From Streptomonospora mangrovi (GTDB taxonomy: Bacteria; Actinomycetota; Actinomycetes; Streptosporangiales; Streptosporangiaceae), in the NCBI RefSeq assembly GCF_027604915.1, contig NZ_JAJAQC010000017.1, positions 62,001 through 126,000 on the forward strand: DNA of 64,000 nt, read 5' to 3'. Shown here piece after piece: positions 83 to 45,031 of the stretch (the stretch's first letter is position 1; every line of letters begins with the position of its first letter). The position numbers were made by a program, and so were the translations under genes. The notes below the pieces were generated by a model. It had not been told where the DNA came from. It worked only from the letters and a program-made list of their open reading frames with translations, and did no database searches.

Positions 83-253
83 TGGTTTCTCCGCTGGCGG
101 ACCGGGGGTGGGAGGCGGACAGGAGAGGGTGAGTGGTGATGGATTTTGACGCATCCGCGTGGACATGTCCAGTACGACACGCCCGGATGCTGAGATGCCG
201 GATACCTGCGCGCTTCCCGCTTCTTCGGGCGGGGGCGCGGGTCCGGCGGGGGT

Positions 254-285
254 CACCCACCGGGGGCCGCGGCCCCCGGTGGGTG
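254..285. terminator. 32-bp perfect palindrome, likely terminator of cassette A
   Basis: Bases 254-285 form a perfect palindrome with 16-base arms (CACCCACCGGGGGCCG and its complement). It begins six bases past the stop of the 47-residue gene at 291-434, so it would fold in that transcript's 3' end. There is no U tract, as is common for actinomycete hairpin terminators. It overlaps the left arm of the cassette-bounding inverted repeat. Confidence 0.65.
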
Positions 286-290
286 GGGGC

Positions 291-434
291 TCACCTGCCG
301 CGCGCCTCCCTCTCGGCCTCGGCGGTGGACGCCTTGGCGTCGGCCACGTCCTTCTCGCTGGACTCGCGGGCCTGCTGGACCTGGCGGGCGGTGTCCTCCT
401 GGATCTTCTTCACGAAGTCCTCGTCCTTGCCCAT
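291..434 (-). CDS. 47-residue charged small protein
   Basis: An ATG at 432-434 follows an excellent GGAGGTGA ribosome-binding site at good spacing. The 47 residues are almost all charged or polar and look like one helix: MGKDEDFVKKIQEDTARQVQ at the start, then repeated Ala-Glu-Lys-Arg heptad-like spacing to the end. There is no signal or membrane segment. It lies 52 bases after the 28-residue gene and is probably transcribed with it from the stress-type promoter at 633-657. I recognise no family. An amphipathic stress-induced protein is an inference from promoter and composition only. Confidence 0.7.
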   Translation of the reverse strand: MGKDEDFVKKIQEDTARQVQQARESSEKDVADAKASTAEAEREARGR

Positions 435-486
435 CTCTGTCACCTCCTCTCGGGGCTCGGTCGGGGCGGGTTCCCTTCGGCTCGCC

Positions 487-573
487 CTAGTCGGGCGTGG
501 GGCCGGGGGGCCGCTGCGGCTCCGAGTTCGGGCCGCCCGGCCGGGGCAGGGGTGCGGGCTTCTCCTTGGGCAT
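487..573 (-). CDS. 28-residue proline-rich small protein
   Basis: ATG at 571-573 preceded by GGGAGGTGA, the best-looking ribosome-binding site in the region. The product (MPKEKPAPLPRPGGPNSEPQ then PPGPTPD) is 28 residues, one third proline, and predicted to be disordered. The stop codon of the leader ORF at 577-624 lies within its ribosome-binding site, three bases upstream of the ATG, so translation may be coupled. No family is recognised. The strong site and promoter argue that it is made; the low-complexity sequence gives no function. Confidence 0.6.
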   Translation of the reverse strand: MPKEKPAPLPRPGGPNSEPQRPPGPTPD

Positions 574-576
574 CGT

Positions 577-624
577 TCACCTCCCTTGGCGCTCTGTGGA
601 GTTGTCAAGGAACTGGCCGTTCAC
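577..624 (-). CDS. 15-residue leader ORF, probably leaderless
   Basis: The GTG at 622-624 lies eight bases after the GGGTAA -10 element, so the transcript probably begins at or next to this codon. It encodes 15 residues containing FLDNSTER, and its TGA at 577-579 falls inside the GGGAGGTGA site of the next gene. Cassette B keeps the same promoter-to-GTG spacing, but there the GTG opens a zinc-ribbon protein instead. The 22-bp stretch at 590-611 that encodes part of it recurs exactly at 1129-1150. It may be a coupling leader rather than a functional peptide. Confidence 0.4.
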   Translation of the reverse strand: MNGQFLDNSTERQGR

Positions 625-632
625 TGTAGATA

Positions 633-657
633 TTACCCTTTCCAGTGGCGGCCAAAC
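633..657 (-). promoter_or_regulatory. SigB/SigF-type stress promoter, cassette A
   Basis: On the minus strand the elements are GTTT (654-657), a 15-base spacer and GGGTAA (633-638). This matches the actinobacterial SigB/SigF/SigH group consensus (roughly GTTT, 14-16 bases, GGGTAC/T/A). The 21 bp 622-642 covering the -10 and start region are identical to 1245-1265 of cassette B. Transcription is expected to start at about 624-627. Confidence 0.75.
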
Positions 658-663
658 CTCCGG

Positions 664-810
664 TTACGGGTGGCTGCCGGTGGACTGGTCGCCGCCCTCG
701 TCGCCGCTCGGCTCCTCGGCCGGGGGCATCTCCTCCCTGATCTCCTGGTTGGCCTTCGCCGCCCAGGCGGTGTAGTCCTTGCCCTCCTGGTACGCCTTCG
801 AGTCGCCCAT
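664..810 (-). CDS. 48-residue acidic small protein
   Basis: ATG at 808-810 follows GAGAGGAAG. The 48-residue product starts MGDSKAYQEGKDYTAWAAKA and becomes strongly acidic (EEMPPAEEPSGDEGGD). It is soluble, probably partly helical then disordered, with no signal peptide. It is the first gene of cassette A, upstream of the internal stress promoter. I see no clear SigB-type element before it. The beginning resembles small hydrophilic stress or hypoxia proteins in general character only; I do not recognise a family. Confidence 0.65.
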   Translation of the reverse strand: MGDSKAYQEGKDYTAWAAKANQEIREEMPPAEEPSGDEGGDQSTGSHP

Positions 811-1047
811 GATGCGCTTCCTCTCTGTTCCTTGTGTCGTGGGATGGATCGAAGATCCCTGCGCGCTGGGTGACCCCCGCCGGACCCGCGCCCCCGCCCG
901 AAGAAGTGAAGGGCGAGCAAGGCGACAACGGCGACACGCCCGAGATCGCAAGGCGGCGATACCTGCGCTCTTCCCTTTCGGGGGCGCGGGGCGCGGGTCC
1001 GGCGGGGGCCACCCACCGGGGGCCGCAACCCCCGGCGGGCGGGGGGC

Positions 1048-1110
1048 TCACTTGCCGCCCTTCGGCTTGCCGAGGTTCTTGGTGGGGGTGTCCTCCTCGT
1101 CGCTGCGCAT
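1048..1110 (-). CDS. 20-residue charged micropeptide
   Basis: ATG at 1108-1110 follows GGGAGGTGACGAC, a near-perfect ribosome-binding site like that of the 28-residue gene in cassette A. The product is 20 residues, acidic at the start (MRSDEED) and lysine/glycine-rich at the end (KPKGGK). It follows the zinc-ribbon gene and should share its promoter. A GC-rich hairpin (arms CCGGGGG/CCCCCGG near 1014-1033) lies downstream. It is too short for family assignment; the translation signals are the main support. Confidence 0.5.
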   Translation of the reverse strand: MRSDEEDTPTKNLGKPKGGK

Positions 1111-1166
1111 GTCGTCACCTCCCTTCGTCGCTCTGTGGAGTTGTCAAGGATCACTGCGGGCTCCGG

Positions 1167-1247
1167 CTACTTCGGCTGGGGCAGACCGCAGTTTGCGCAG
1201 TCCGCTCCTCCCGGCGGGTAGGGGGTTCCACAGTTGGGGCAATCCAC
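1167..1247 (-). CDS. 26-residue zinc-ribbon microprotein
   Basis: A GTG at 1245-1247 opens 26 residues containing CPNCG and CANCG, a complete CxxC-x10-CxxC zinc-ribbon knuckle pair and little else. The GGGTAA -10 element ends nine bases before the GTG, so a leaderless mRNA is likely and no ribosome-binding site is needed. A longer upstream reading exists but crosses the promoter and inverted repeat, so I reject it. Such small rubredoxin-like ribbons are common in actinobacteria. Binding partners are unknown. Confidence 0.65.
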   Translation of the reverse strand: MDCPNCGTPYPPGGADCANCGLPQPK

Positions 1248-1255
1248 TGTAGATA

Positions 1256-1280
1256 TTACCCTTTCTGTGCGGTTTGAAAC
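1256..1280 (-). promoter_or_regulatory. SigB/SigF-type stress promoter, cassette B
   Basis: GTTT at 1277-1280 (minus strand), a 15-base spacer and GGGTAA at 1256-1261 form the second copy of the stress-type promoter, identical in spacing to the one at 633-657. The -35 sits inside the palindrome GGTTTGAAACC. The predicted start is at the GTG of the zinc-ribbon gene. Confidence 0.75.
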
Positions 1281-1443
1281 CTGGGGATCGAAGATCCCTG
1301 CGCGCTGGGTGGCCCCCGCCGGACCCGCGCCCCGCGCCCCCGAAAAGGGGTGTTGACGGGGGGAAATGCGGACATCAGCCTCAAACACACACCCTTCAAT
1401 ATAACTTGCTCTCCTTTCTCTCTTTTTTCTTCTTTCGCCTTCG

Positions 1444-44537: not shown

Positions 44538-45031
44538 GGCCGACGACCCGAACAGGCGCAACGGACCCGGCCCGCCCGCGAACCGGCGCCGACCGTCCGC
44601 GCGGACGCGACCGGTCCCCTGGCCCGCGCGGGCTCAGGGCGACGACCCGGCGCGGCCGATCCCGGCCGGTCCCCGGCCCGCGCGCGGGCTCAGGTCGGCG
44701 CCGCGAACGGGCACGGCCGGGCCCCGTCCGGGGGCGGGCTCGGACCGGCGGTCCGCACTGTCCCGGCCAGGCGCGGCCCGGGCACGGGCGGCGGCCGACG
44801 GTTTTCCGAAAGGGCAACCGGTCCCGGCCGGTTCCCCGGCCCGCGCGCGGGCTCAGGGCGGCGAACCGAACGCGGCACGGCCCGACCCGGCCGGTACCGG
44901 CCGGGCGCGGGCTGTCGGCGGTGGCCGGGGGCCGCTACCCTGCTGGTCTCGCCCGCAGTGCCGCGGGCGTGCCGGTGCCGCGCCGTCCTCGGGCGGGTGG
45001 GTGCCGGACCGCCGACCGAAGGGACGCCGGA
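44538..45031. repeat. repeat-rich intergenic region
   Basis: 494 bases without a convincing gene. A degenerate unit around GGCCCGCGCGCGGGCTCAGG recurs near 44620, 44674 and 44838, with a weaker copy near 44570; each has a CCCGCGCGCGGG palindrome and nearby CGGCCGGTCCCC-like bases. It resembles REP-type extragenic palindromes. Frames that cross it are low-complexity Arg/Pro/Gly and were rejected. Confidence 0.6.

Follow-up and report, generated by a model that had tools for sequence, protein, structure and literature searches.

Repeated inverted-repeat units with a boxA-like segment and swapped micro-ORFs at a plasmid-type transfer locus of Streptomonospora mangrovi

The DNA analysed here, called the window, is a 64,000-nt stretch of the Streptomonospora mangrovi genome, at one end of which two units adjoin a MobF-type relaxase gene (Pfam, NCBIfam) that leaves the window's left edge. 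Both units read on the minus strand, toward this gene (Table 1). The general order within a unit is an upstream box, a 5' arm, a palindrome, a promoter-like element with a micro-ORF, a boxA-like motif, a Shine-Dalgarno (SD) sequence with micro-ORFs, a hairpin, a 3' arm and a two-part site, followed by the relaxase. The window units lie within an inserted block of ~7-8 kb that is missing from genome G001, where the flanking genes stand ~0.9 kb apart (an empty site), and the block looks like a plasmid remnant. An earlier, sequence-only reading of the window had stated that no transposase is present; none is seen in the annotated stretches, but that reading had passed over the relaxase gene beginning at the window's edge.

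Table 1. Features of the two window units and the adjoining relaxase gene, in reading order (coordinates are those of the window)
Feature	Position	Strand	Basis
Conserved upstream box AGCAAGTTATA before unit 2; possible promoter or binding site	1400-1410	-	Exact 11-mer before 8/10 class I units
Unit 2 5' arm of long inverted repeat	1306-1345	-	Perfect complement of 976-1015
Unit 2 el5, hairpin/palindrome GCGCAGGGATCTTCGATCC; possible operator or relaxosome site	1285-1303	-	Pattern scan, family genomes
Unit 2 promoter-like GGGTAATATCTACAGTG, leaderless layout	1245-1261	-	Promoter function inferred
Unit 2 leaderless-looking GTG ORF, 26-aa zinc-ribbon peptide	1167-1247	-	Pfam Zn_Ribbon_1 E 1.9e-4; codon comparison with G003
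Unit 2 boxA-like 22-bp segment, core 1133-1147	1129-1150	-	13/15 positions as in host rrn leaders
Unit 2 20-aa ORF	1048-1110	-	SD 9 nt past boxA; 1-nt-different ORF in G003-2
Unit 2 terminator-like hairpin, overlapping start of 3' arm	1009-1042	-	RNAfold, 15-bp stem
Unit 2 3' arm	976-1015	-	Pairs with 1306-1345
Unit 2 el3, a two-part site (GCGCAGGTATC - 19 nt - CGTGTCG); may be an origin of transfer or bound by a regulator	932-968	-	Motif
Unit 1 5' arm	867-906	-	Perfect complement of 220-259
Unit 1 el5 hairpin/palindrome	846-864	-	Pattern
Unit 1 48-aa ORF, upstream of promoter-like element	664-810	-	52-aa relative in G003-2
Unit 1 promoter-like GGGTAATATCTACAGTG	622-638	-	Letters identical to unit 2 copy
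Unit 1 15-codon leaderless-looking ORF at promoter-like element	577-624	-	ORF reading
Unit 1 boxA-like 22-bp segment, core 594-608	590-611	-	Match to host rrn leaders
Unit 1 28-aa ORF, after boxA and SD	487-573	-	ORF and SD spacing
Unit 1 47-aa ORF	291-434	-	ORF reading
Unit 1 terminator-like hairpin, overlapping 3' arm	254-285	-	RNAfold
Unit 1 3' arm	220-259	-	Pairs with 867-906
Unit 1 el3, two-part site ahead of relaxase gene (GCGCAGGTATC - 19 nt - CGTGTCG)	175-211	-	Motif
MobF/TrwC relaxase gene, 5' end; rest lies left of window (L004 7023-10082)	1-82	-	Pfam TrwC E 4.2e-44; NCBIfam MobF 123.6 bits, cut-off 100

The perfect repeats noted in the sequence-only reading (221-259 with 867-905, 976-1015 with 1306-1345) are indeed fully complementary, and that of unit 1 gains one more pair (220-259 with 867-906), so that each unit holds a 40-bp repeat with arms 607 nt (unit 1) or 290 nt (unit 2) apart. 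The longest perfect inverted repeat in 500 dinucleotide shuffles of positions 151-1420 (arms at least 200 nt apart) was 14 bp, and 12 of the 13 listed in the 64 kb (at least 18 bp, gap 20-1500 nt) are made of unit arms or hairpins, the single one outside being 18 bp long at 44970/45543. Across the ten units of this kind, termed class I, 22 arm columns differ with pairing kept (56 cells); 365 of the 378 arm cells are Watson-Crick, 6 G-U and 7 other, a high paired fraction that is partly by construction because the arms were picked for complementarity. Each repeat probably forms a long-range helix, and the scarcity of G-U pairs, in GC-rich arms and judged against one control RNA (this genome's RNase P), weakly favours single-stranded DNA over RNA as the pairing form. 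No promoter boxes (-35/-10) were seen within the arms, and DNA folds of the two strands had similar energies in the 5 units folded. Homogenisation of arms by recombination would give a pattern similar to the G-U scarcity.

Beyond the arms, units 1 and 2 share the promoter-like element and the 22-bp segment. The former, GGGTAATATCTACAGTG, occurs at up to 1 mismatch in only 2 of 341 family genomes; matches to this 17-mer elsewhere (23 hits in species contigs, 22 with a named taxon and none of these actinobacterial, and 7 in viral contigs) were read as chance. The upstream box AGCAAGTTATA, which may bear some likeness to tracrRNA, stands exact before unit 2, G003-1, L011, L042, L043 and all three L044 units and is missing before window unit 1 and G003-2, while the el5 pattern GCGCAGGGATCTTCGATCC was found at 11 places in 5 of the 341 family genomes. 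The 22-bp segment is exact in both window units and has no other copy at up to 2 mismatches in the 6.36-Mb host genome. Its core agrees at 13 of 15 positions, differing at 2, with TTGAGAACTCAACAG, a motif that lies at 5 sites in host rrn leaders, 147-152 nt before the 16S start at 4 of them (the contig of the fifth ends first), and that is, by its place, probably boxA. These leaders were read directly, since an Rfam 16S model search of this genome gave no match, probably because contig ends interrupt its rrn operons. In all nine units having an ORF behind boxA, the gap from boxA to SD is 6-9 nt (9 nt in unit 2); the boxA of L011 is a poor match.

The ORFs of 28, 47, 48, 26 and 20 codons noted earlier are all present on the minus strand with SD-like or leaderless-looking starts, but the 48-codon ORF lies upstream of the unit 1 promoter-like element and does not follow it. 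For the proposed 26-residue zinc ribbon, two CxxC motifs are visible and Zn_Ribbon_1 matches as given in Table 1, but at 21.6 bits, under the curated cut-off of 25. Compared with its G003 counterpart, this ORF has 8 synonymous and 2 nonsynonymous codons (2, 1 and 10 differences by codon position) and looks coding. The 20-aa ORF of unit 2 recurs in G003-2 with 1 nt changed in 60, and G003-2 is by order and arms a non-corresponding unit, which shows shuffling of cargo. The 48-aa ORF and its 52-aa relative in G003-2 differ at 3 synonymous and 18 nonsynonymous codons, and the 28-aa ORF differs from G003-2 at 1 and 15, suggesting that these two either evolve more quickly than the relaxase or do not code. 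Elsewhere, synonymous-to-nonsynonymous counts are 4:20 and 0:2 for the first and second ORFs of L042/L043 and 5:5 for a SEC-C ORF, and such uneven ratios would be expected of fast-evolving cargo and of non-coding DNA too. Cargo size across units is 20-59 aa, with Cys-rich cargo recurring.

The sequence-only reading had also envisaged a modular unit that spreads with swapped cargo. Modularity holds up: eight further units outside the window carry other arm letters and other micro-ORFs. Independent spreading finds no support: the class I units found lie by transfer or replication genes, and the three pattern searches used gave no copy elsewhere. Apart from the two in the window, they lie on Nocardiopsaceae plasmids (one each on L042 and L043, three on L044) and in a sister species (two on its chromosome, G003, and one on its 14.7-kb contig, L011). 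They stand in one to three tandem copies, keep one order and orientation at their loci, and adjoin genes for MobF and a 159-aa protein or, on L011, the one contig without MobF, a Rep-looking gene. At least 5000 MobF plasmid records match; of the 11 that were retrieved, the 6 nearest relatives carry units and the other 5 do not; the same 6, two of which are nearly the same plasmid, hold copies of the 159-aa protein at least 72% identical, whereas the three inspected of its four weaker relatives (31-43%) lack the motifs. The stretches retrieved from L079 and from four MobF plasmids of Streptomycetaceae (L080-L083) lack boxA, upstream-box and el motifs, and MobF-matching loci of related genomes (L092, L095, L096, L097, L098 and L099) have neither a boxA match nor a unit in the parts examined. 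Blast of unit L044-2 returned no match in phages and five plasmid records, four of them Nocardiopsaceae plasmids already fetched and the fifth a short Borrelia match read as chance, and Rfam gave nothing reaching gathering score on the units.

Taken at the level of sequence, these comparisons demonstrate the anatomy of the unit, its recurrence, the two-sided change of its arms and the swaps in its cargo. The explanation we prefer, to which we give an even chance, is that the cassettes are copies of a boxA-controlled micro-operon of the Nocardiopsaceae plasmid transfer locus. Transcription would begin at the leaderless promoter and the first micro-ORF would be translated; a Nus complex would load on boxA, where it would govern how the following ORF is translated (the suhB situation in E. 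coli), allow RNA polymerase past the hairpin and the untranslated stretch and on into the relaxase gene (the rrn situation), or do both. Less surely, the arms may pair across 286-770 nt in the single-stranded DNA of transfer or rolling-circle steps, closing a micro-gene stem-loop, and the micro-proteins may be exchangeable plasmid-establishment cargo produced around transfer. A bolder and unlikely version is that of a new actinobacterial plasmid establishment cassette, in which the entering strand folds by its arms, a borrowed rRNA boxA secures transcription across the folded part, and swappable, fast-evolving micro-proteins are the first to be produced in the recipient, where they would protect the plasmid or install it.

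Several known systems resemble parts of the unit, as far as the excerpts of the cited papers describe them. In the BoxA-regulated suhB leader, boxA likewise shortly precedes the SD (6 nt, against 6-9 here; PMC5725501), but our units are repeated, sit at a plasmid-type locus and have arms and other cargo. In pLS20-family plasmids of Bacillus, EGeRS1 blocks recur upstream of five putative plasmid operons; they are 400-600 bp long, have a higher GC content, are rich in inverted repeats and are presumed to act when the plasmid enters the recipient (PMC8708921). The likeness, drawn from description, is that of repeated inverted-repeat blocks by plasmid genes, but the EGeRS1 repeats lie upstream of genes where here two arms enclose them, and that paper does not contain the word boxA. 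The units recall Frpo/ssi promoters and leading-region anti-defence islands, where modular genes close to the origin of transfer go with signals in folded single-stranded DNA (PMC11541004), but no -35/-10 boxes were seen in the GC-rich arms and the cargo is 20-59 aa long. Among the best-matching open-licence papers on Nocardiopsis relaxase plasmids or on boxA with plasmids, small RNAs, conjugation or Streptomyces, no description of such a unit was found. At actinobacterial plasmid transfer loci, the units bring together an antitermination signal of the rRNA type, a long inverted repeat that covaries, and micro-proteins that can be exchanged. Should the micro-proteins prove to be factors of establishment or counter-defence, arms plus boxA would offer a search handle for hidden proteins under 60 residues; if not, an rRNA-type boxA would still be used outside rRNA, on plasmids.

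A reading that overlaps the preferred one, possible though rather doubtful, places the function in RNA: a precursor like that of the rRNA operon, with boxA and a long leader-trailer helix that closes the transcript, the helix stabilising or processing the micro-gene mRNA or competing with the inner hairpin. A boxA-like motif and a long helix at the flanks are shared with rRNA operon leaders, which have boxB-boxA and a leader-trailer helix of 27-44 bp in E. coli (PMC10250234), and a transcript containing both arms could begin at the upstream box that precedes 8 of 10 units. The inner terminator-like hairpin (RNAfold) overlaps the 3' arm in 8 of the 10 class I units, the other 2 having no overlapping hairpin, and because it shares the first bases of that arm, hairpin and long helix are mutually exclusive. 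However, boxA precedes the leader strand of the helix in rrn, whereas in the units it lies inside the helix and is followed by SD and micro-ORFs rather than 16S; the clearest promoter stands between the arms, so that its transcript would lack the 5' arm; and G-U pairs are rare.

That rarity extends to three simpler relatives, class II, which have a hairpin without a second ORF at the same place on three plasmids. In their basal stem, 29 of 48 pairs changed on both sides, with mostly Watson-Crick covariation, and 2 of 270 standard pairs are G-U, whereas the RNase P of this genome has 6 in 96 (Fisher p 0.005, the cells not being independent); the loosely aligned apical part has frequent G-U (19, against 51 Watson-Crick and 20 other). 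These counts use 6 sense rows, with 4 antisense rows and one near-duplicate left out of 11. The hairpin model matches three further genomes, one copy lying near integrase-, Rep- and GntR-looking genes. Such hairpins lend support to a single-strand replication or transfer structure (sso- or oriT-like) in whose loop the micro-genes merely ride. This reading, which also overlaps the preferred one, leaves boxA, the SD spacing and the recurrent Cys-rich cargo unexplained, and we judge it unlikely. The class II hairpin shares with Ms1/6S RNA a long hairpin of ~185 nt, but the genes observed around it differ from those named beside Ms1 (PMC9130861). In Rfam it gave nothing at gathering score and no 6S match up to E 10, and its identification as 6S RNA was dropped.

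Quite improbable, in our estimate, is an assembly of ordinary pieces, namely terminators, an operator, the promoter region of the relaxase gene and chance ORFs. Terminator-like hairpins are present, an el3-kind palindrome stands before several other MobF genes and several ORFs show no sign of purifying selection, but the arms far exceed chance, and from unit to unit both partners of their pairs change; the zinc-ribbon ORF also looks conserved, and the boxA-SD spacing is constant. An autonomous or MITE-like cassette spread by its terminal inverted repeats, as first proposed, would account for long repeats, cargo swaps and 1-3 copies per element, but is very unlikely given the confinement to transfer or replication loci in constant order and orientation (by the patterns used), arm letters that vary between units of one plasmid though each pair matches, the absence of a transposase beside the units, and the failure to find dispersed copies by those patterns or target duplications by eye.

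The excerpt of a paper on the pIJ101 palindrome-binding protein gave no link to the units (PMC4170104). Five of the 10 class I units and two of the 3 class II units hold the exact two-part site (CGCAGG[GT]ATC-17 to 20 nt-CGTGTCG), which is also found on L011, L076 and L077, stretches that have no MobF; it is a candidate oriT or operator. A hairpin-then-nic order, if it applies here, would place the units on the trailing side.

Both cassettes in the window, unit 1 and unit 2 (W1 and W2), are class I units, with long inverted-repeat arms enclosing a promoter-like element, a boxA-like segment and micro-ORFs. The sequence-only reading had framed each cassette with a perfect inverted repeat; both repeats proved exact and in place, 40 bp apiece once extended, and the longest inverted repeat in 500 dinucleotide shuffles of window positions 151-1420 was 14 bp. 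The micro-ORFs and motifs that it named are likewise present, all on the minus strand, and the search of relatives that it proposed turned up further copies, bringing class I to 10 units (W1, W2, G003-1 and G003-2 from the sister species, L011, L042, L043, and L044-1, -2 and -3), a set that excludes the second copies present in the L042 and L043 records, as well as the L047 plasmid, a near-repeat of L042. The reading that fits the units best is a transfer-locus micro-operon whose expression boxA would control. The arms would pair into a long-range helix, for which single-stranded DNA is a likelier setting than RNA. An early establishment function would rest on position and on published analogues (PMC8708921, PMC11541004). 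Because several of these readings can hold jointly, their stated confidences overlap. The units work like parts of three known systems (plasmid establishment blocks, rrn leaders, BoxA-regulated leaders) and are filed under none of the three; no Rfam match reached a gathering score, one unit (L044-2) searched against phages gave no match, and no description of the units was found in the open-licence literature searched.

Features located in the analysis
Feature	Location	Strand	Remark
Unit 1 (W1)	window 220-906	-	class I
Unit 2 (W2)	window 976-1345	-	class I
159-aa protein	L004:6574-7053	-	next after MobF relaxase; no family match
~185-nt hairpin copies	L059:9570-9754, L043:6623-6810, L045:9710-9898, also L103-L105		MobF plasmids and three further genomes

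The 22-bp segment described as common to the two cassettes indeed has exactly two copies in the host genome at up to two mismatches. The boxA pattern TTGAGAACTCNACAG, allowing one mismatch, occurs at nine places in the genome, comprising five exact rrn-leader copies, the two units and two others, with no match to the reversed pattern in the same scan. Four of the five rrn copies sit 147-152 nt before the 16S start and the fifth, at a contig end, has the same flank; TTGACAACTCCACAG, the version in the units, shares 13 of its 15 positions with the host rrn copies. Every class I unit with an ORF behind boxA (9/9) has a boxA-to-Shine-Dalgarno gap of 6-9 nt, and no such ORF was seen in the L011 unit. 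In Escherichia coli suhB, which the Nus complex controls, this gap is 6 nt (PMC5725501).

Aligned arm cells of the 10 class I units are Watson-Crick in 365 of 378 cases (6 G-U, 7 other), a fraction partly by construction, the arms having been picked for complementarity. The informative part of the comparison is the columns that vary between units with pairing retained, and pair-keeping changes occur in 22 alignment columns (56 cells). The poorest arm pair, that of G003-1, has three mismatches and one gap. A local hairpin directly 5' of the 3' arm takes the arm's first bases in 8/10 units (exceptions L011 and L044-3).

Swapped cargo, also part of the sequence-only reading, is borne out: the 20-aa ORF of W2 recurs, changed at one position in 60 nt, in the G003 unit that is not W2's counterpart, and this is direct evidence of cargo shuffling. 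Between G000, the host genome, and G003, synonymous and nonsynonymous codon differences number 8 and 2 in the zinc-ribbon ORF, 3 and 18 in the 48-aa ORF, 1 and 15 in the 28-aa ORF, and 137 and 89 in MobF; the L042 and L043 first ORFs differ by 4 and 20, their second ORFs by 0 and 2, and the SEC-C ORF pair by 5 and 5. The 48-aa and 28-aa ORFs depart from the MobF ratio (Fisher p 4e-5 and 2e-5), with no difference for the zinc ribbon and SEC-C (p 0.32 and 0.52). Judged by these counts against MobF, one micro-ORF appears conserved and several look fast-changing or non-coding. First ORFs are Cys-rich by eye in 6/10 class I units (W2, G003-1, L011, L042, L043, L044-2).

The window corresponds to G000:C8:62001-126000. 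At its left edge, on the units' strand, begins a 1019-aa relaxase-helicase that passes the cut-offs of both Pfam TrwC and NCBIfam MobF. The 159-aa protein resembles a putative helix-turn-helix protein; it is 98.7% identical between G000 and G003 (MobF, 91%), its close relatives lie on the same six plasmid records that carry units, and it is a likely partner protein. The opposite strand nearby encodes a relaxase of MobA/VirD2 type, whose match clears the cut-off, and a NikA-like protein, whose match falls short of it. Right of the cassettes stands a gene with a ferric-reductase look and no family match; the intervening positions 1561-1662 hold long G runs, possibly an artefact of assembly or sequencing. 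In the single empty-site genome compared, G001 (two of six genus genomes are without the marker gene), a ferric-reductase-like gene and a relative of the block's far-side gene lie ~0.9 kb apart, and since both flanking genes are there without the block, the ~7-8 kb block was gained in G000 or lost in G001. The G004 stretch examined gave no match to the second flanking gene. In G003 the block is ~89% identical and holds two units; the MobF match there includes one TGA in the search's extension, and direct reading gives a 1012-aa ORF.

The promoter-like 17-mer (up to one mismatch) occurs in 2/341 family genomes, G000 and G003, and the pattern of el5, the hairpin just inside the 5' arm, at 11 places in 5/341. 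L011, a 14,689-bp G003 contig, carries the 17-mer, a unit, a Rep-looking gene and a TraB-like gene (below cut-off) with no MobF match. The G003 chromosome has a MobF gene and a site of the same type, and mobilisation in trans is possible. MobF orthologs (63.5-64.5% identity) with units upstream lie on plasmids of Nocardiopsis changdeensis, N. sp. MT53, N. flavescens and Streptomonospora nanhaiensis, the last with three units. The L042, L043 and L047 plasmid records hold the unit-MobF module twice, as a dimer or an assembly duplication. Among 11 MobF plasmid records examined, out of at least 5000 that match, six have class I and/or II units and five (L079-L083) have neither. The two-part site 3' of the unit occurs in 4/40 Nocardiopsis genomes, in two of them within a 3-kb stretch without a unit.

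Class II units, of simpler build, precede MobF on three plasmids (the N. flavescens second locus, N. eucommiae and Thermobifida pTH1), in the order palindrome or variant, Cys-rich frame (by eye in 3/3; that of N. eucommiae without a clear start codon), boxA-like motif and ~185-nt hairpin. Two of the three hairpins, folded as RNA, gave z of -6.5 and -7.2, with no Rfam match at gathering score. A model built from all three (R1) matched 4/40 Nocardiopsis genomes, one being the N. eucommiae source and the others scoring 106, 74 and 66 bits. In an alignment fitted to the model and so biased toward pairing, two-sided changes affect 29/48 basal-stem pairs across six sense rows (268 Watson-Crick, 2 G-U, 12 other, 6 gaps). 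In the apical part, where the alignment is loose, 51 cells are Watson-Crick, 19 G-U and 20 other. Host RNase P, as control, has 6 G-U in 96 standard pairs, a higher rate than in the basal stem (p 0.005) or the class I arms (p 0.02), in cells that are not independent. The scarcity of G-U is a weak sign that selection acts on DNA or for very strict pairing, and the hairpin is a candidate for either a single-strand origin or a new structured RNA. Of the three further copies, the one in G158 has the clearest setting and adjoins genes that look like integrase, Rep and GntR.

A GGTATC-loop-GATACC-like palindrome, a candidate operator or oriT hairpin, lies within ~100-200 nt upstream of several other MobF genes (L092 ~4580, L096 ~1415, L095 ~4580, and likewise L079, L080 and L082), its letters varying with symmetry retained.
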